IMG/VR virus record: IMGVR_UViG_3300030616_000081
Location: 1 to 23,954 of that record
Direction: 5' to 3' (one strand)
Source of the DNA: a virus
Length of the DNA: 23,954 nt
How positions within the stretch are numbered: position 1 is the stretch's first letter; each line of letters starts with the position of its first letter. Below are positions 2,518 through 9,868 of this stretch, in pieces. Made by a program: the position numbers and the translations under genes. The notes under the pieces were generated by a model that was not told where the DNA came from, did not search any database, and saw only the letters and a program-made list of their open reading frames with translations.

Positions 2518-2898
2518 ATGATATTTAAATGTGTAAAAGCATCTAAAACACTCACTTTCGGTAAAATGTATTCAGGTACGGAAAACAGTTGTGCTTACTA
2601 CGTCAAAGGCGACGACGGTGTAAAAAGGATGTATGACAAAAGCAGGTTTGAGATTAAAAAAACAAAAACAGAACCACAAGATGATACTAAAGTTTATGAG
2701 TTTGAAGATAAACTACCGTTAGGACCAAGACCAAAATTTATTTTAGTACAACAAAGAATTCAAGAACTTTGTGAAGCTATTATCGAATATGCATCGTTTG
2801 GTAAAACCGCACCAAAAGAATGGATTTATGAGGTATTAGAACTTAATGAATGGAATGAGCGCAAACAAGGCGTTATTTACACTATGCCTAAAGAATAG
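2518..2898 (+). CDS. hypothetical phage protein, 126 aa
   Basis: The AATAGGAGG at 2502-2510 gives the ATG at 2518 a good ribosome binding site. The first 45 residues look like a small beta barrel (FKCVKASKTLTFGKMYSG then a tyrosine-rich strand). A charged linker follows, then a helical C-terminal part (residues 75-125) with FILVQQRIQELCEAIIEYA. A tandem of beta domain plus helix is common in phage accessory proteins, but I do not recognise this one. It is the last gene before a structured non-coding stretch. Confidence 0.65.
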   Translation: MIFKCVKASKTLTFGKMYSGTENSCAYYVKGDDGVKRMYDKSRFEIKKTKTEPQDDTKVYEFEDKLPLGPRPKFILVQQRIQELCEAIIEYASFGKTAPKEWIYEVLELNEWNERKQGVIYTMPKE

Positions 2899-2910
2899 AT
2901 TGAATCCCTA

Positions 2911-2987
2911 CCAAGCTAACGGAACCGGTCACTGTTGGTTTGGATAGCGGTTTAATAATCTGTGTTTTCTCCAAAATACAACCGCTA
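2911..2987 (+). ncRNA. two tandem hairpins, candidate structured RNA or mRNA leader
   Basis: The 236 bases between the stop at 2898 and the ATG at 3135 hold no long gene but strong potential structure. Hairpin one pairs CCAAGCTAAC (2911-2920) with GTTGGTTTGG (2934-2943): ten pairs, two of them G-U, which suggests RNA rather than DNA function. Hairpin two pairs TAGCGGTT (2945-2952) with AACCGCTA (2980-2987) and holds an inner stem GTGTTTT/AAAATAC (2962-2979) capped by CTCC. A third perfect hairpin with a GAAA loop lies at 3079-3092. I recognise no known family. Confidence 0.4.
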
Positions 2988-3075
2988 AAAAGTGGCAAAC
3001 AATAAAAAAGAAAAGAGGTGAATCACTCCTTACAATTCATTGAAAGTCCACTTAATAATTAACAAGGTGGTGGTA

Positions 3076-3123
3076 ATGCCCCGGAAACGGGGATGTCTTA
3101 TAAAAGGAACTAATAAAATTTAG
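3076..3123 (+). CDS. possible 15-residue leader peptide
   Basis: An ATG at 3076 follows AAGGTGGTGG and encodes MPRKRGCLIKGTNKI, ending at TAG 3121-3123. The stop touches the AGGAGG ribosome binding site of the gene at 3135, so translation could be coupled. The first codons form a GC-rich perfect hairpin (CCCCG-GAAA-CGGGG, 3079-3092) in otherwise AT-rich DNA, which could instead be the real functional element. It is short enough to be chance. Confidence 0.25.
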   Translation: MPRKRGCLIKGTNKI

Positions 3124-3134
3124 GAGGAATAATT

Positions 3135-3477: not shown

Positions 3478-3503
3478 AATAGATGCGAACAATGGTGGTG
3501 TAT

Positions 3504-4010
3504 ATGGCTAATAAAGTTGGAAGAAAAAGCAATTATTATACATTAGTAGAACCAAATTTGAAAATAATTGAATATTGGTGTAGGGATGGCGCTATTGATG
3601 AAGAAATATGGAATAGATTAGGAATAAGCAAAACGTCTTTTTATAAATATCAAAATGAGCACGAGGAATTTGCAAACGCCTTAAAAAAAGAAAAGGAACT
3701 TGTAGATTATAGTGTTGAAGATTCACTTTTAATGAGTGCTAGAGGTCATGTTAAAGAACTAAGAAAGCCTTTTAAACTAAAAGAAGTTTACTATGATGAT
3801 AAAGGTAAGCGATGCGAAAACGAAAGAGTTGCATATGGTATAGAAGAAGTATATTATCCACCTGTGCCTTTATCAATAATATATTGGTTGAAGAACAGGA
3901 TGAAGGGTAAGTGGAGAGACAAGCCTGTTTTTAGCGATGAAGAAAAAGAAACGATAGAAAAGCTTGATAAAATACTAGAATCTCTCGACAATCAGGCAGG
4001 TGATGAATAA
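3504..4010 (+). CDS. terS: terminase small subunit
   Basis: The small subunit recognises phage DNA at the packaging site and hands it to the large subunit. The protein (168 residues from this start) has a helix-turn-helix near the N-terminus (IDEEIWNRLGISKTSFYKYQ), a helical middle, and an acidic C-terminal helix rich in D and E, the usual layout of the family. I chose the ATG at 3504 because GGTGGTG lies directly upstream; an in-frame ATG at 3483 lacks a ribosome binding site. Its stop overlaps the first base of the large-subunit gene (TAATG), which is the main evidence for the call along with size and domain layout. Confidence 0.85.
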   Translation: MANKVGRKSNYYTLVEPNLKIIEYWCRDGAIDEEIWNRLGISKTSFYKYQNEHEEFANALKKEKELVDYSVEDSLLMSARGHVKELRKPFKLKEVYYDDKGKRCENERVAYGIEEVYYPPVPLSIIYWLKNRMKGKWRDKPVFSDEEKETIEKLDKILESLDNQAGDE

Positions 4011-5266
4011 TGATAATGTCACCTAAACAAAAGATATTTTGGCGCGAAGCTGTACTGAAATATCGCAGATGGAATATATGTAGCGGTGCTACTCGCTCGG
4101 GTAAGACTTACTTAAGTTACTGGTATATACCAAGAAAAATTAGAGAATTGTCAGAAAAAGAAGGTCTTGCGGTGTTAATAGGTTGCACTCATACAACTAT
4201 TGAAACTAACCTACTAGAACCAATGAGGGAAATATGGGGCGATGATTTAGTAGGAACTATTAACTCAAAAAACAAATTAGTGATGTTTGGTCAATTGTTT
4301 CATGTTGTTGGCGCAGAGAAAAAAACTGGCGTTAATAGAATAAGGGGTCAATCAATAAAATTATGCATAGGTGACGAAGTTGCTACTTGGAATAAAGAAG
4401 TATTTCAAATGCTTAAATCGCGTTTAGATAAAGAATATTCTTGTTTTTATGGTACGTGCAATCCGGAACATCCTGATCACTGGTTTAAAGAATTTATTGA
4501 TTCAGATGCCGATATATTTCACCAACATTATACAATTGATGATAACCCTTATTTATCTATTGGATTTGTCGAAGCGTTAAAAAAAGAATACGCCGGAACG
4601 GTTTATTGGTTTAGATTCATCTTAGGTCTATGGGTAAGGGCTGAAGGTGTAATATACTCTAAGTTTTCGGCTGACCCTAAGAAATATTTTAAGCCATATG
4701 AACAAATATTAGATATAATGTCTAAAAAGAGGTTTATAGAGATAAATATAGGCGTTGACTTTGGAGGCACCAAGTCTGGACAAGCGTTTGTTGCTACTGG
4801 AATAAAAGCTGGTTATAGCGGTATTACCGGCTTAGGTTCTGAAAGGCACTTTGGCGACATTGACCCTGATGATTTGGGACAACTGTTTGTTGAATTTACA
4901 GAAAAGATAATTTCTAAGTACGGACGTGCTGATTATGCATTTTGTGATAATGCTGAGCCTGTGTTAATACGCGGAATAAAAAACGCATGTGAAAAGGCTA
5001 GATTGCCTATAACCGTTAAGAATGCTATAAAAAAACCTATTAATGATAGAATACGTGCTGGTAATGCTATGATAAACCGAGGCATGTTTGATTACACGGA
5101 AGACTGCGAAACATTGGAAAGCGCTATAGCTGATGCGGTATGGAACGAAAACGTATTGCATGACGAACGTCTTGACGATGGAACAACAGATATTGACACA
5201 ATGGATGCGTTTGAATATAGCTGGGAAAAAGACATTGTTTATTTGATGGATTACAAGGCGAGGTGA
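4010..5266 (+). CDS. terL: terminase large subunit (PBSX/phage_term_2 type)
   Basis: This is the ATP-driven packaging motor and nuclease. The Walker A motif GATRSGKT is at about residues 26-33 and Walker B (IKLCIGDEV) has D122-E123. A coupling motif (GTCNP) is near 148-152. The C-terminal nuclease shows the three expected acidic positions: D250 in IGVDFGGT, D313 in AFCDNAEP, and D397/D399 in DIDTMDAFEY. At 418 residues it has normal family length. The start at 4010 overlaps the terS stop; an in-frame ATG at 4016 is also possible. The portal gene follows after 5 bases. Confidence 0.97.
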   Translation: MIMSPKQKIFWREAVLKYRRWNICSGATRSGKTYLSYWYIPRKIRELSEKEGLAVLIGCTHTTIETNLLEPMREIWGDDLVGTINSKNKLVMFGQLFHVVGAEKKTGVNRIRGQSIKLCIGDEVATWNKEVFQMLKSRLDKEYSCFYGTCNPEHPDHWFKEFIDSDADIFHQHYTIDDNPYLSIGFVEALKKEYAGTVYWFRFILGLWVRAEGVIYSKFSADPKKYFKPYEQILDIMSKKRFIEINIGVDFGGTKSGQAFVATGIKAGYSGITGLGSERHFGDIDPDDLGQLFVEFTEKIISKYGRADYAFCDNAEPVLIRGIKNACEKARLPITVKNAIKKPINDRIRAGNAMINRGMFDYTEDCETLESAIADAVWNENVLHDERLDDGTTDIDTMDAFEYSWEKDIVYLMDYKAR

Positions 5267-5271
5267 TATAA

Positions 5272-6648
5272 TTGTTTGGAAATATAAAAAATTTCTTTGT
5301 GGGGGTGTGGAATAAATTGTTTAATAAAGACCAATTGGCCAACAAACTAGGTGCAACTATCAATGTATCGGATAAAATGACAAAAGCTATACAGGATTGG
5401 GATGCTATTTATAAAAATCAATCATCGTGGCTTAATAGTCAAGTTAAATCATTGGGTCTCGGGGCATCAATTTCAAGTGAATTCGCTAGACTTGTTACTC
5501 TTGAATTAGAATCGGAGGTTTCCGGGTCTGTTAGGGCAGAATTTTTAAATGTTCAATACTCAAAGCTACTTGAAAACCTAAGACAGCAAACTGAATACGC
5601 TTTGGCAAAAGGCGGAATGGTATTTAAACCATACGTTGCGGATGGAGAAATCAAAATTGATTATGTTCAAGCTGATTGTTTTTATCCGATATCTTTTAGT
5701 GATAACGGATATGTTACAGAGGGATTTTTTGTAGATCAGATAAAAAAAGGCAATTATTATTATAACAAAATTGAATACAGAAAGTTTGAAAATGGCGCGG
5801 AGACTATAAAAAACATGGTCTTTAAGTCAACTACTTCAAACGACATCGGTAATCAAATATCATTAGAAAGTGTAAACGAATGGGCGTCTTTGGTGCCTGA
5901 AATAACATTCACTGGCTTAAAAATGCCACTGTTTGCTTATTTTAAAAACCCAATGGCTAACACAATAGAACCTGGTAATCCAATCGGCGTGTCTGTATTT
6001 TCAAGAAGTGCTGAATTGATTGAAGAGGCTGATAAGCAATGGTCAAGATTTTTGTGGGAAAACGAAAGCGGCGAGCGGGCAATTGATGTTGATAGCGGGG
6101 CCTTTAAAAAAGATGAATATGGCAACATGGTTATACCTAGTGGGAAAGAAAGGCTTTACAGAACATTAGAAAGCACAGATAATACACCAATGTACCACGA
6201 TTGGTCGCCAGAGTTTAGAAACGATCCTTTATTGGCTGGGCTTGATGCCATACTTAAAAAGATAGAGTTTAACTGTGGCCTTGCGTACGGCGCTTTGTCT
6301 GACCCTCAAACAGTAGATAAAACAGCAACGGAAGTAAAACAAGCAAGACAACGCTCTTATTCAACCGTAAAGGATATTCAAAACGCATTAAACAGAGCAC
6401 TTGAACATACGGTTTACATCATGGATGTGTTATCGACGCTTTATAAGTTGTCACCACTAGGCAGCTATGAAGTAACATCAACGTGGGACGATTCTATAAT
6501 TGTTGATGCAGAGCAAGAAAGGCTTAGAGATATGCAAGAGGTAACGATGGGACTTATGAAAAACTGGCAGTATAGAATGAAATGGTATGGCGAAACAGAA
6601 GAAGAAGCGAAAAAGAATTTTCCCGATACAACAGAAGACATCTTATAG
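5272..6648 (+). CDS. portal protein, A118-like
   Basis: The portal forms the dodecameric ring through which DNA enters and leaves the head. At 458 residues, with conserved features of the A118-type portals (SEFARLVTLELESEVSG early; ADCFYPISFSDNG in the middle; SDPQTVDKTATEVKQARQR near residues 343-361; a C-terminal acidic helix), the call is secure with its place after terL. Translation begins with TTG at 5272 after GAGGTGATATAA; no ATG fits. A terminator overlaps the last codons. In related phages the minor capsid gene follows directly, but here a non-standard 1.4-kb island intervenes. Confidence 0.93.
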   Translation: MFGNIKNFFVGVWNKLFNKDQLANKLGATINVSDKMTKAIQDWDAIYKNQSSWLNSQVKSLGLGASISSEFARLVTLELESEVSGSVRAEFLNVQYSKLLENLRQQTEYALAKGGMVFKPYVADGEIKIDYVQADCFYPISFSDNGYVTEGFFVDQIKKGNYYYNKIEYRKFENGAETIKNMVFKSTTSNDIGNQISLESVNEWASLVPEITFTGLKMPLFAYFKNPMANTIEPGNPIGVSVFSRSAELIEEADKQWSRFLWENESGERAIDVDSGAFKKDEYGNMVIPSGKERLYRTLESTDNTPMYHDWSPEFRNDPLLAGLDAILKKIEFNCGLAYGALSDPQTVDKTATEVKQARQRSYSTVKDIQNALNRALEHTVYIMDVLSTLYKLSPLGSYEVTSTWDDSIIVDAEQERLRDMQEVTMGLMKNWQYRMKWYGETEEEAKKNFPDTTEDIL

Positions 6649-6658
6649 GTGTCTTTTT
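6636..6658 (+). terminator. terminator overlapping the end of the portal gene
   Basis: AGACATC (6636-6642) pairs with GGTGTCT (6648-6654, one G-U pair) around the loop TTATA, which carries most of the portal stop codon; five T residues follow. It would end or weaken the terminase-portal transcript. Confidence 0.78.
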
Positions 6659-6659
6659 C

Positions 6660-6673
6660 TGCAAGAATTTGCA
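6660..6673. repeat. inverted repeat TGCAA-N4-TTGCA (copy 1)
   Basis: TGCAA, four bases, TTGCA; flanking C and G extend the match to six pairs per arm. The same 14-base pattern with the same spacing occurs at 9187-9200. This copy lies just upstream of the promoter at 6675-6703. It is a candidate protein-binding site or a small RNA hairpin. Confidence 0.5.
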
Positions 6674-6674
6674 G

Positions 6675-6703
6675 TATACAACATATAAATAAATGGTTAT
6701 AAT
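6675..6703 (+). promoter_or_regulatory. promoter for the structured RNA / tRNA unit
   Basis: TATACA at 6675-6680 and a perfect TATAAT at 6698-6703 are separated by 17 bases, the ideal spacing. The predicted start, about 7 bases further at 6710, coincides with the 5' end of the 9-bp helix that opens the tRNA-like element. It follows the portal terminator, so the RNA is probably made from its own promoter. Confidence 0.65.
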
Positions 6704-6708
6704 TAATA

Positions 6709-6852
6709 TATAAGTTGTGTCGGAATAGGTAGACGGATGATAGGCTAAGTCAAAAGCAGTGAAATTAGATTAGGTAAATGATCATTACCTTTTAAGTCTA
6801 AAAGTAATGTTGAAGCTAGACGTTGTTAGGTGCAAATCCTAACCAACTTATA
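6709..6852 (+). ncRNA. tRNA-Leu-like domain, atypical
   Basis: TATAAGTTG (6709-6717) pairs perfectly with CAACTTATA (6844-6852) like an extended acceptor stem. After TG comes a D-arm that looks leucine-type (TCGGAATAGGTAGACGG, 6720-6736). The T-arm GTTAGG-TGCAAAT-CCTAAC is at 6825-6843. However, D-arm and T-arm are about 88 bases apart where a tRNA-Leu has about 50, the T-stem has six pairs, T55 is G, no CCA follows, and no canonical anticodon arm can be placed. The spacer instead folds as GGTAA/TTACC (6773-6789) or, alternatively, as ATTAC(C)TTTT/AAAAGTAAT (6784-6808). It may be a degenerate tRNA, one with an insertion, or a tRNA-mimicking domain of a larger RNA. Confidence 0.5.
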
Positions 6853-6919
6853 AGTAATTGCAGTCAGATCTGCTAACTGTCGGTGGTGTGGTGAGCCAAG
6901 TTATAAATCACTGATACAT

Positions 6920-6995
6920 GCTTTTGTAGCTCAGAAGGTCGAGCAGATGTCTGTTAACCATTGTGACGTAGGTTCGAATCCTACCAAAAGCGCCA
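6920..6995 (+). tRNA. tRNA-Asn (anticodon GTT)
   Basis: A full 76-base cloverleaf with encoded CCA: acceptor GCTTTTG/CAAAAGC with discriminator G; D-stem GCTC/GAGC; anticodon loop CTGTTAA with GTT at positions 34-36; five-base variable region GTGAC; T-arm GTAGG-TTCGAAT-CCTAC. Oddities are a T-C mismatch at pair 31-39 at the base of the anticodon loop, a G-T pair at 27-43, and C instead of A at position 21. It could still charge and read AAC and AAT codons, which are very common in these genes. Confidence 0.9.
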
Positions 6996-7136
6996 TGTGT
7001 AGTGCAAGTGGGTGCTACAAAGTCCTGTGTAAGGCGTTGAAGTCGGTTAGACGTAGCTGACACCACAACAACAGAGGTCAAGGCTTGTCGTGAGATAACC
7101 CCTCTGACCTCTCAATATTATTTGGGAGGTTTTTTA
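6996..7136 (+). promoter_or_regulatory. structured leader with alternative hairpins (attenuator candidate)
   Basis: Downstream of the tRNA are successive hairpins. TGTAG/CTACA spans 6998-7019. GTCGGTTA/TAGCTGAC spans 7042-7061, with eight pairs including two G-U and a GACG loop. A long hairpin pairs AGAGGTCA (7073-7080) with TGACCTCT (7105-7112) and ends in TTGTC-GTGA-GATAA, a GNRA-type tetraloop. The 3' arm of that hairpin (7107-7112) is also the 5' arm of the terminator at 7107-7136, so the two cannot form together. CACCACA (7061-7067) can also pair with TGTGGTG (6887-6893) across the tRNA. The pattern resembles a switch or attenuator; no known family is recognised. Confidence 0.45.
7107..7136 (+). 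terminator. terminator / ribosome-site sequestering hairpin
   Basis: ACCTCTC (7107-7113) pairs with GGGAGGT (7124-7130, one G-U) around a 10-base loop and is followed by six T. The 3' arm GGGAGG is also the only ribosome binding site for the ATG at 7139, so forming this hairpin would both stop transcription and hide the site. Confidence 0.75.
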
Positions 7137-7138
7137 TT

Positions 7139-7465
7139 ATGGACAAGTTTATAAAATTAGTAGTATGGGGTGAAAATTGGTGTGATGATGTGTGCAATAT
7201 TCAAAATTCTTATGGCTACTCGCTTGATGTTTTAAATCAAATAGATAAGCAGTTTAAGGAATCAGATTATGATTTAAGTGAGTATTATGAATCAGAGATA
7301 ACGTTAGAAATGAAATATATAGAAGCGCAAATAGGTGACTATCCACCACCAAATGTAGAAGTTGAAGCTTATTGGGATTGGAAAGTTGTAAAAGTTGAAC
7401 GTTTCAAAGATGACCCAAATTATACTGAAAGTGAGTTTAAAAAACAATTCGAAGATATTTTTTAA
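7139..7465 (+). CDS. acidic hypothetical protein, 108 aa
   Basis: The product starts MDKFIKLVVWGENWCDDV and is strongly acidic, with many aromatic residues (six tryptophans and eight or more tyrosines) and no membrane segment. Its ribosome binding site lies in the arm of a terminator hairpin, so its expression depends on read-through and on how the upstream RNA folds. A second terminator follows at 7472, isolating it as a single-gene unit inserted between portal and minor capsid genes. I do not recognise the family. It is not an expected structural protein at this position, so an accessory (moron-type) role is likely. Confidence 0.62.
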   Translation: MDKFIKLVVWGENWCDDVCNIQNSYGYSLDVLNQIDKQFKESDYDLSEYYESEITLEMKYIEAQIGDYPPPNVEVEAYWDWKVVKVERFKDDPNYTESEFKKQFEDIF

Positions 7466-7471
7466 TCACTT

Positions 7472-7496
7472 AAGCTACTCCACAAAGGTAGCTTTT
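7472..7496 (+). terminator. rho-independent terminator
   Basis: AAGCTAC (7472-7478) pairs perfectly with GTAGCTT (7488-7494) around a 9-base loop. The T run is short (TTTT, 7493-7496, then C). It closes the transcript carrying the 108-residue acidic protein. Confidence 0.72.
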
Positions 7497-7528
7497 CACT
7501 TTACTGTCACTTTGCAAACGCTTAAAGA

Positions 7529-7537
7529 TGTTAAAAT
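7529..7537 (+). promoter_or_regulatory. extended -10 promoter for the secreted protein gene
   Basis: TGTTAAAAT (TGn plus TAAAAT) lies 18 bases before the ATG at 7556. A weak TTTGCA (7511-7516) could serve as -35, with a 15-base gap. The AGAGGTGAT ribosome site starts only 7 bases after the -10, so the transcript would start at or in it. Confidence 0.55.
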
Positions 7538-7555
7538 AAAGCAAGAGGTGATAAC

Positions 7556-8023
7556 ATGAAAAGATTATTTGCAATTATGCTCATTTTAGCTTTAACGCTT
7601 AGTTTTTCTTTTGCAGATACCAAAGTAGTACATGTGTATTTTGATGTACTAGCAAACGAAATAACGGATTTACAAGGTGATTACTTTGTAGATGAACAAA
7701 AAGAATTGTTACTCATGGAAGTAAACACCGATAGCATACAAGATGGATTTATAGTCGATTATGAAAAGAAAAGCAATATTTTAACATTTAAACCACCTGA
7801 TTTATTCGATGGTCAGACAACGTTTGAATATTATTTTCTTGATGAAGATTTTGGAAGTTACAATGTATTTGCGCATGTGAATGTTGAATACTTGGAAGTT
7901 GATGTAGTGAACCAAAGAATAAAAGAAGAGGCCGAAAAGCTAATTTTGAGCGATATAAAAGAAGAATACAAAGTTATATATAAACAGATTATTGAATTAA
8001 TAATGCAGATAGAGCCTGAGTGA
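7556..8023 (+). CDS. secreted protein with signal peptide, 155 aa
   Basis: The N-terminus MKRLFAIMLILALTLSFSFA is a clear Sec signal peptide, with cleavage likely after FSFA before DTK; there is no lipobox cysteine. The mature part (about 135 residues) is acidic, with alternating strands up to about residue 115 and a helical C-terminus. A phage protein sent to the cell surface in the midst of head genes, with its own promoter and terminator, fits a moron such as a superinfection-exclusion or lysogenic-conversion factor. That is inferred from position and secretion only; no family is recognised. Confidence 0.7.
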   Translation: MKRLFAIMLILALTLSFSFADTKVVHVYFDVLANEITDLQGDYFVDEQKELLLMEVNTDSIQDGFIVDYEKKSNILTFKPPDLFDGQTTFEYYFLDEDFGSYNVFAHVNVEYLEVDVVNQRIKEEAEKLILSDIKEEYKVIYKQIIELIMQIEPE

Positions 8024-8037
8024 TTAGGCTCTTTTTT
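8011..8037 (+). terminator. terminator overlapping the end of the secreted protein gene
   Basis: AGAGCCT (8011-8017) pairs with AGGCTCT (8026-8032) around an 8-base loop containing the stop codon, followed by six T. A promoter begins 2 bases later. Confidence 0.87.
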
Positions 8038-8038
8038 A

Positions 8039-8047
8039 TGGTATAAT
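8039..8047 (+). promoter_or_regulatory. extended -10 promoter for the minor capsid gene
   Basis: TGGTATAAT is a perfect extended -10 element, immediately after a T run and only 16 bases before the ATG at 8064, with GAGGTGAT between them. Confidence 0.62.
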
Positions 8048-8063
8048 TAACTGAGGTGATAAT

Positions 8064-9185
8064 ATGCTAACTGCTGATTATTTAGATCGCGTGCCAGATG
8101 ATGTTGTTGAGTTATACGCAGAACTTGAAATTTTAATAATACAGGACATTTCTAGGCGTATATCAAAGATGAATTATTTAACGCCTACCGCAGAGTTTCA
8201 ATTTAAACAACTTATTGAAGCTGGAAAAGTGTATGAAAACGCCATAAAACAAATAGCGTTAATAACCGGCAAAAGCGAAAAAGAAGTAAGGGCCACTTTT
8301 GAATCATCTTCTTTAAAATCACTTAGATTTGACGACTCAATAGCAATTAACGCAGGTTTACAACCGATACCGCTTGCCAAAAGCGTGGCAATGATACAAA
8401 TAATTAATGCAAACATACTAAAGACAAACAACAATTTAAAAAACTTGACAATGACAACCGCGTCAACTTCGCAGCAGTTATTTATACAATCATCAACGCT
8501 TGCTCAAATGCAAATACAAAGCGGTGCTTTCCCGGCTGATATTGCCATAAGAAATGCTGTTAAGAATGCAAGTACAGAAGGATTAAGAGTTATATATCTG
8601 ACCGGAGAAAGTAGAACCATAGAAAGCGCTGTGAGGGCGAATGTTTTGACAGGTGTTAATCAAACAGCAGCAAAACTAACTGAAATGAGAGCACAAGAAC
8701 TTGGATTTAAGCATTATGAAACATCAGCACATTCTGGTGCAAGAGAAGGCGAAGGGTACAAAGGGCATGTTAATTGGCAAGGAGAACGCTTTTTAATTAA
8801 TGGTAGTGATAAAAAGTATAGAAATTTCAAAGAAGCTACCGGTTACGGATTGATCCAAGGGTTATGTGGGACAAATTGTAGGCACTCTTTTTATAGTGTT
8901 CCTGAATCTGCGCCGCTTGCATATACTCAAAGTATACTCAAATCATTAGATAAACCCGACGTAAAATACAAAGGAAAGACTTACAGCTATTATGAAGCTA
9001 CTCAAAAACAACGCTATATAGAGCGAAATATAAGAAAATGGAAACTGGAATCAAAAGCCATGGAATCGGCAGGCGTTGATAACTCTATTGCAAATGCTAA
9101 AGTAAAAGAATGGCAAAAAAAAGCTAGAGAATTTACAATAGCAACCGGGGTTAAGCGCGATTATACGAGAGAGCAAATAGCATAA
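8064..9185 (+). CDS. minor capsid protein (Phage_min_cap2 / head morphogenesis)
   Basis: This 373-residue protein matches the minor capsid protein 2 family found after the portal in A118-type phages. The N-terminal half is helical. A central conserved core has an HSGAREG stretch (about 222-228) and the hallmark GLCGTNCRHSFYSV (about 267-280), the Cys-Gly-x-Asn-Cys-Arg-His signature shared with head-morphogenesis proteins. The protein is thought to sit in the capsid near the portal and help assembly. It has its own promoter and a GAGGTGAT ribosome site, unlike relatives in which it is read through from the portal. Confidence 0.88.
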   Translation: MLTADYLDRVPDDVVELYAELEILIIQDISRRISKMNYLTPTAEFQFKQLIEAGKVYENAIKQIALITGKSEKEVRATFESSSLKSLRFDDSIAINAGLQPIPLAKSVAMIQIINANILKTNNNLKNLTMTTASTSQQLFIQSSTLAQMQIQSGAFPADIAIRNAVKNASTEGLRVIYLTGESRTIESAVRANVLTGVNQTAAKLTEMRAQELGFKHYETSAHSGAREGEGYKGHVNWQGERFLINGSDKKYRNFKEATGYGLIQGLCGTNCRHSFYSVPESAPLAYTQSILKSLDKPDVKYKGKTYSYYEATQKQRYIERNIRKWKLESKAMESAGVDNSIANAKVKEWQKKAREFTIATGVKRDYTREQIA

Positions 9186-9301: not shown

Positions 9302-9868
9302 ATGAAAAGAGAAGAACTTGAAGCATTGGGTCTGGAAAAAGAAAAGATTGACGCAATTATGAAAATTAATGGCGAAGATATTGAAGCCCAAAAGAAAAAA
9401 GTTGAAGCTGCTGAACTCGATAGAGACAACGCTCAGAAAGCTTTGAAAGAAACGCAAGATACTTTGAAGAGTTATGAAGGCGTAGACGTTAAAGAACTTA
9501 CCGGAAAAATCGAAGAGTTAAATAAGCAGATTGCTACAACTACAGAAGCAAGTCAAAAAGAAATGGATCAACTTATTAATAAGCACGCGGCTGAGAAATA
9601 CCTAGGTACGTATAAATTTTCTAGCGAATCTGCCAAAAAGCAAGCGTTAAGAGATTTTCTTGATGCAGGATTGACTCGCGACAAAAAAACAGAAACTTTT
9701 GTAGGGGCTGATGATTTTATGAAAAAAATGAAAGAGTCCGACCCGGCTGCATTTGTTGCAGAAGACACACCAACACCTCCTGGATTTACGACAGGCCAAA
9801 CAGGAAAACCTGATACTGGCGGTATGTCGTTCAGTTTTAATGGTGTTAGAGAGAAACCTAAAGAATAG
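9302..9868 (+). CDS. capsid scaffolding protein (Phage_GP20 family)
   Basis: A 188-residue protein that begins MKREELEALGLEKEKIDAI and then forms a long coiled coil (about residues 25-90, rich in K, E, A and Q). A conserved block follows at 92-130 (KYLGTYKFSSESAKKQALRD, then the DAGLTRD turn), with a proline/glycine-rich tail. This is the layout of GP20 scaffold proteins, which shape the procapsid and then leave it. TAGGAGGAAACT gives a strong ribosome site. The gene precedes the major capsid gene by 11 bases, as in related phages. Confidence 0.92.
   Translation: MKREELEALGLEKEKIDAIMKINGEDIEAQKKKVEAAELDRDNAQKALKETQDTLKSYEGVDVKELTGKIEELNKQIATTTEASQKEMDQLINKHAAEKYLGTYKFSSESAKKQALRDFLDAGLTRDKKTETFVGADDFMKKMKESDPAAFVAEDTPTPPGFTTGQTGKPDTGGMSFSFNGVREKPKE

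Follow-up and report, generated by a model that had tools for sequence, protein, structure and literature searches.

A tRNA-like RNA element without an anticodon arm in a phage head gene cluster belongs to a widespread, uncatalogued class of phage RNAs

RESULTS

An inserted block between the portal and minor capsid genes

The DNA studied here, referred to as the window, is the whole of a 23,954-base IMG/VR phage record (IMGVR_UViG_3300030616_000081) that carries a packaging and head gene cluster. The genes for TerS (3483-4010), TerL (4010-5266), and the portal protein (5272-6648) are followed by the minor capsid (8064-9185) and scaffold (9302-9868) genes. The annotated phages closest to the window infect Ruminococcus gnavus, Clostridioides, and Faecalibacterium. 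Because the portal and minor-head genes are adjacent in all four related phages examined, we consider positions 6649 to 8063 to be an inserted accessory block. It consists of a non-coding stretch and two orphan ORFs (7139-7465 and 7556-8023, together 7139-8023 on the plus strand, with a terminator after each), for which we found no PHROG, Pfam, phage, or IMG/VR relative. The gap free of protein genes described in a first-pass annotation of the sequence is real, as no ORF of 60 or more amino acids occurs on either strand from 6649 to 7138. In order, the non-coding stretch contains a terminator, a tRNA-like fold, two hairpins, a tRNA-Asn, further hairpins, and a terminator, all on the plus strand. 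Elsewhere in the window, a gene-free region upstream of TerS (2899-3134) folds well (z of -3.3 at 2881-3020) and yielded no Rfam match above chance.

Both terminators that had been annotated are present. The one at the end of the portal gene is a terminator-like hairpin at 6635-6659, with the stem AAGACA/TGTCTT followed by a T-run (-11.4 kcal/mol for the stretch). The intrinsic terminator previously placed at 7107-7136 was found at 7106-7131 plus its T-tail (feature 7106-7136), and its 3' arm holds the motif GGGAGG (7124-7129), likely the Shine-Dalgarno sequence of ORF 7139-7465. Three terminator-like sites occur in 6400-8100, compared to 0.4 expected. The annotated promoter fared less well: TATACA-17-TATAAT (6675-6703) does match a sigma-70 promoter at 10 of 12 positions, but the region has four promoter-like sites versus 7.0 in shuffles, so this possible promoter does not stand above chance for the region. 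An inverted repeat (ACAACATATA ... TATATAAGTTGT, 6678-6717) flanks the putative -10 box and is possibly an operator, or a product of chance. The strongest z score of a fold scan in 120-nt steps (-6.1, at 6601-6740) falls around this repeat.

A tRNA-like element whose anticodon arm is replaced by an insert

Positions 6711 to 6850 encode a tRNA-like RNA element of 140 nt that has no anticodon arm. Its acceptor pairs 6711-6717 with 6844-6850 and is followed by a D-arm of the tRNA-Leu type (TCGGAATAGGTAGACGG, 6720-6736), the stem pairs of which covary in the class described below. An 87-nt lineage-specific insert without a homologue (6738-6824) replaces the anticodon and variable arms, and folding together with the class alignment places the T-arm, GTTAGG-TGCAAAT-CCTAAC with a 6-bp stem, at 6825-6843. 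The 9-bp opening helix and the leucine-type tRNA-like fold of the first-pass annotation were thus borne out: the helix pairs 6709-6717 with 6844-6852, with acceptor pairing probabilities of 0.98 to 1.0, and a first descriptor (a 7-bp acceptor and a T-arm at variable distance) matches 6711-6850 and had no match in a 4-Mb Markov control. All 16 class pairs form in the window (including 7/7 in the acceptor and 6/6 in the T-stem), so that the element, row 1 of the class alignment, has the paired 7-bp acceptor, the D-arm GGAAUAGGUAGAC, the 6-bp T-stem, and the loop UGCAAAU by which the class is recognized. The same positions gave no match to the Rfam tRNA model (RF00005) at E values up to 10 and no ARAGORN call. 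The insert ends in GTT and has neither the (C)AU linker nor the insert-closing helix of other members. Its apical hairpin (6771-6790) has a 7-nt loop, AUGAUCA, holding the self-complementary UGAUCA, through which, as modeled, two copies of the RNA might pair.

The conserved RNA is the element rather than the whole unit

Downstream of the element lie a spacer with two hairpins (6860-6873 and 6878-6916; spacer 6860-6916), a tRNA-Asn (6920-6995), and a 3' region with hairpins (6996-7104). The tRNA, a cloverleaf with a GUU anticodon and an encoded CCA, had been recognized earlier and is found by both ARAGORN and Rfam (62.5 bits, anticodon GTT); likewise, one GNRA-type loop (GUGA) is present near 7090-7100. 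Spacer and 3' region are defined by folding, and neither has a recognizable homologue among the matches listed from 50,697 phage records or in the genomes of Clostridia and of the Erysipelotrichaceae type that were searched. When the whole unit was compared by BLAST to the same phage records, all 50 of the matches listed fell within the tRNA. Exact patterns from the window had no counterpart in viral or genome collections, and tRNA-masked nucleotide searches of host genomes returned mostly chance matches; one, L128, falls inside a 462-amino-acid ORF and was rejected. The useful exception was L136, discussed below.

The annotated gap had been read as a single structured RNA of about 425 bases, either new or derived from GOLLD or ROOL. 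That the element, spacer, tRNA, and 3' hairpins act as one large ornate molecule of this kind is, in our judgment, quite unlikely. The 431-nt whole fold does score well against shuffles (z of -3.4), tRNAs can occur in GOLLD linkers (PMC12286853), a homologous element lies beside a ROOL RNA in L136, and related phages have a conserved multidomain RNA upstream of terS with a similar layout (tRNA-like element, core, tRNA, and 3' stem). However, the whole-fold score arises from the tRNA (z of -2.9), the terminator (-3.3 for the 3' part that bears it, -0.9 without it), and partly the tRNA-like element (-2.2), whereas the unit with tRNA and terminator removed folds like shuffles (-1.3). The spacer and 3' part have no homologue among the matches listed, and a model of the related terS-upstream RNA fails to match the window. 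A derived GOLLD or ROOL is likewise contradicted, as the Rfam search returned tRNA matches only and none for GOLLD (E values up to 5), ROOL, or tmRNA, even at permissive thresholds; ARAGORN also called no tmRNA in the window, and matches to manA-II, RefA9, SraG, and AgvB scored far below gathering and were dismissed as chance. The ~425-nt unit is therefore unsupported as a conserved RNA. We give still less credence to the stretch being a 5' leader (attenuator) that controls ORF 7139-7465. GGGAGG does sit in the terminator stem and would be released by a competing 8-bp helix (7073-7080/7105-7112), but that helix is unfavorable by 6.2 kcal/mol, the ORF is an orphan, and class members elsewhere precede no common gene. 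What survives of the proposed new phage non-coding RNA is its novelty, with no counterpart in Rfam 15 and strong compensatory change, and what does not is its extent, since the conserved RNA is the 140-nt element.

Covariation in a class of phage RNAs

L136 is a prophage element and the only 24-nt match among 391 genomes of the class to which the host of L051 belongs. It shares the D-arm and the 6-bp T-arm of the window's element, yet its acceptor is wholly different and fully paired (TGTGTAG/CTACACA in L136, TAAGTTG/CAACTTA in the window). A class search pattern spanning D-arm to T-arm, GGAATDGGTAGAC-N80-110-GGTGCAAATCC, matched at least 120 stretches in IMG/VR and, in the 391 genomes, only the one holding L136. 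Among the matches listed, the acceptor is fully paired (7/7) in 100 of 122 elements and the T-stem has 6 bp in 103 of 122.

The first-pass annotation had proposed a covariation analysis of homologues, and compensatory changes were indeed found, for the class of the tRNA-like element. Because the pattern itself fixes the sequences of D-loop and T-loop, only the pairs that it leaves free count as evidence; all 13 of these change on both sides in 85 non-redundant members (among the matches listed). In the same members, 97.2% of pair cells are paired, compared to 71.1% after shuffling (0/500) and 36 to 45% when the registers of the alignment are slid. This covariation is decisive evidence for a selected RNA fold in the class. 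Sequence comparison thus establishes the structure, conservation, and phage occurrence of a widespread, uncatalogued RNA class. The class itself appears to be new, as it lies outside Rfam 15, none of its elements is called by ARAGORN (0 of 121 among the matches listed), and no description was found in open-access PMC literature.

From its 5' end, a class member comprises a 7-bp acceptor, UG, a 3-bp D-stem with the loop GAAUAGGUAGA, about 10 nt, and the insert, then usually CAU, the 6-bp T-stem with the loop UGCAAAU, and the 3' strand of the acceptor. The insert spans 80 to 110 nt by the pattern, but the members seen extend this range to between about 60 nt (SPP1 and H1-Guo) and about 160 nt (VEsP-1); its sequence is not conserved among members. 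A helix closing the insert ends 2 or 3 nt upstream of the T-stem; in the best register, with 2 nt between them, 21 of 85 members have such a helix versus 2.5 expected (among the matches listed), making it a feature of a large minority and no strict criterion of the class. Among the matches listed, an anticodon arm was detected in 2 of 85 members (3 in shuffles) and CCA is encoded in 1 of 85; the discriminator base is mixed.

Occurrence and genome context

The class is present in well-studied phages. The copy in SPP1 (L259, X89721) lies at about 2497-2605, where nothing is annotated between head genes 9 and 11, and further unannotated copies occur in phi3T, Enterococcus VEsP-1, Weissella WC29P3, and Lactiplantibacillus H1-Guo. 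Directly after the SPP1 element, at about 2615-2670, is a minimal hairpin pair (ACGGAC...CGGGTTCAATTCCCG...GTCCGT) that, from its sequence, resembles a tRNA of which only acceptor and T-arm remain; a second RNA class, described below, has hairpins of this kind. Several members lie downstream of a RinA/ArpU-type late activator (L147, L150, L159, L172, and L136 by PHROG match; VEsP-1 by annotation), some precede HNH genes, and others adjoin genes for DNA polymerase, thymidylate synthase, or integrase. With such unrelated neighbors, genome context varies. A tRNA occurs within 800 nt of 26 of 121 elements (among the matches listed), some members (L157 and L210) sit within tRNA arrays, and in L136, a Clostridia prophage, a ROOL RNA (326 bits), a tRNA-Met, and the element lie in a row. 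A promoter at the 5' end was rejected as a general feature of the class, having been found in only 3 of 83 members (0.6 expected).

In a Listeria phage locus (L198), the Rfam small RNA rliG ends inside the start of the element's 5' acceptor and D-arm, a positional hint, not proof, of transcription of the element. More broadly, rliG and mcrA (Rfam) adjoin the tRNA-like element in Listeria-type phage loci (L151, L164, L170, and L198), and these known small RNAs may be parts of the same transcript.

DISCUSSION

Mimicry of tRNA is already known from tmRNA, YrlA, and viral tRNA-like structures. With tRNA-Leu the class shares a 7-bp acceptor and a D-arm of the type GCGGAAUNGGUAGACGC; it differs from tRNA-Leu in having no anticodon arm, a 6-bp T-stem, the T-loop UGCAAAU, a long insert, usually no encoded CCA, and a mixed discriminator, and in being uncalled by Rfam and ARAGORN. 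Like tmRNA, it has tRNA-like ends and an insert in the place of the anticodon arm; unlike tmRNA, the insert is much shorter, the acceptor is fully variable rather than carrying the Ala-type G-U pair, and neither Rfam nor ARAGORN makes a tmRNA call. YrlA, a bacterial Y RNA that occurs in phages too, has a non-decoding domain that mimics tRNA, whereas the element has no Rfam match, and a chance-level YrlA match of 16.5 bits in the window (6961-7021) overlaps the real tRNA. A group I intron in a tRNA-Leu anticodon was dismissed, as the insert is far too short. Species 1 and species 2 RNAs of T4 (rnaC and rnaD) are, like the class, small stable phage RNAs beside tRNA genes, and rnaC has a T-arm-like hairpin near its own 3' end; the D-arm and T-loop sequences of the class are absent from both, and they were rejected as members. 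GOLLD and ROOL are non-coding, phage borne, and often near tRNAs (PMC12286853). The class differs from them in sequence, size, and fold, with one member adjoining a ROOL RNA.

The retention of acceptor, D-arm, and T-arm and the loss of the anticodon suggest that the factors involved recognize tRNA by its upper half, as do RNase P, RNase Z, the CCA-adding enzyme, EF-Tu, and tRNA-targeting toxins. We infer the transcription, processing, partner, and function of the element as follows. It probably mimics tRNA: cut out of the phage transcript by the host's RNase P and RNase Z, it would engage factors that bind tRNA while not decoding, a reading to which we assign a probability of roughly 0.6. The element and the downstream tRNA-Asn would be made in one presumed late-region transcript closed by the terminator. 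Host RNase P would cut at 6711, and RNase Z or exonucleases would trim near 6850, leaving a stable RNA of about 140 nt. Through its acceptor/T-arm helix, this RNA would occupy a tRNA-binding partner, undecoded, with a processing enzyme, EF-Tu, or a tRNA-targeting defense factor as candidates, and the variable insert could be an effector or specificity module. Two features are unlike normal tRNA, the change of U55 to G in the T-loop and the 13-bp stack of acceptor and T-stem, and they make cleavage by RNase P and RNase Z less than certain. For the class as a whole, we tentatively propose a tRNA scaffold, matured by the host and carrying an interchangeable effector insert, that may disable or redirect a tRNA-dependent host or defense function during infection.

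The main alternative to a tRNA mimic, and one we regard as unlikely while giving it more weight than the others, is that the element punctuates processing. In that case it would have no function as a free RNA, and cuts by RNase P and RNase Z would split a polycistronic transcript, separating mRNA segments and freeing neighboring RNAs such as the tRNA-Asn. Acceptor plus T-arm is indeed a minimal RNase P substrate, the elements lie between genes with a tRNA within 800 nt in 26 of 121 (among the matches listed), and most have no promoter at their start. But a short hairpin would suffice for this purpose, and minimal acceptor/T-arm hairpins exist beside such elements (SPP1); moreover, the nearly invariant D-arm and the retained long insert, often with its own closing helix, are left unexplained. 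It is far less probable that the element is a decayed tRNA-Leu gene, debris in an accessory block beside a working tRNA-Asn. The tRNA-Leu-type D-arm and the missing anticodon arm and CCA would fit such decay, yet the stems of acceptor, D-arm, and T-arm have undergone compensatory changes in a diverse set of 85 members, the T-loop is unusual but invariant in the class, and the window's own element pairs perfectly in acceptor (7/7) and T-stem (6/6). As an origin of the class, a decayed tRNA is refuted by covariation.

This class of structured RNA, present in at least 120 phage contigs and in well-studied phages such as SPP1 and phi3T, appears to have escaped Rfam, tRNA finders, and the phage annotations examined. 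With this genetically tractable system one can ask why phages encode tRNA mimics that do not decode, and since one of its members adjoins a ROOL RNA and a tRNA, it also provides a lead on the puzzle of ROOL and GOLLD. Were the inserts effectors, the class would constitute a natural platform for RNAs on a tRNA scaffold.

Other RNAs were met in related phages. In R. gnavus-type phages, the multidomain RNA that precedes terS, here termed class A, is a second uncatalogued RNA, with a RinA-type activator on one side and the late genes on the other (L004, L011, L014, L015, L019, L032, L035, L036, L038, L039, L042, L046, L047, and L132-L135; for example, L011:4058-4540). Its 5' part is a minimal acceptor/T-arm hairpin or a tRNA-Ala-like element, its conserved core has two hairpins with loops complementary over 7 nt (ATCCGCA/TGCGGAT), and its 3' part comprises a swappable tRNA (Asn, Ile, or Trp) and a 10-bp 3' stem, in most cases with a terminator. 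Class A lies outside Rfam and shows a few compensatory changes. R1, a covariance model of its core, had no match in the window or in 299 genomes of one family, the latter a search without a positive control. Three further elements (L086:3538-3672, L085:4090-4200, and L092:2550-2628) have acceptor, D-arm, and T-arm, with a long or irregular region replacing the anticodon arm; their T-loops are normal (TTCRANN), and they thus form a subtype different from the window's. Finally, as judged by eye, several Clostridia prophages (L022, L063, L068, L092, and L105) have a recurring hairpin of the form stem-GGGUGUCACAGCC-stem upstream of their tRNA or tRNA-like element.
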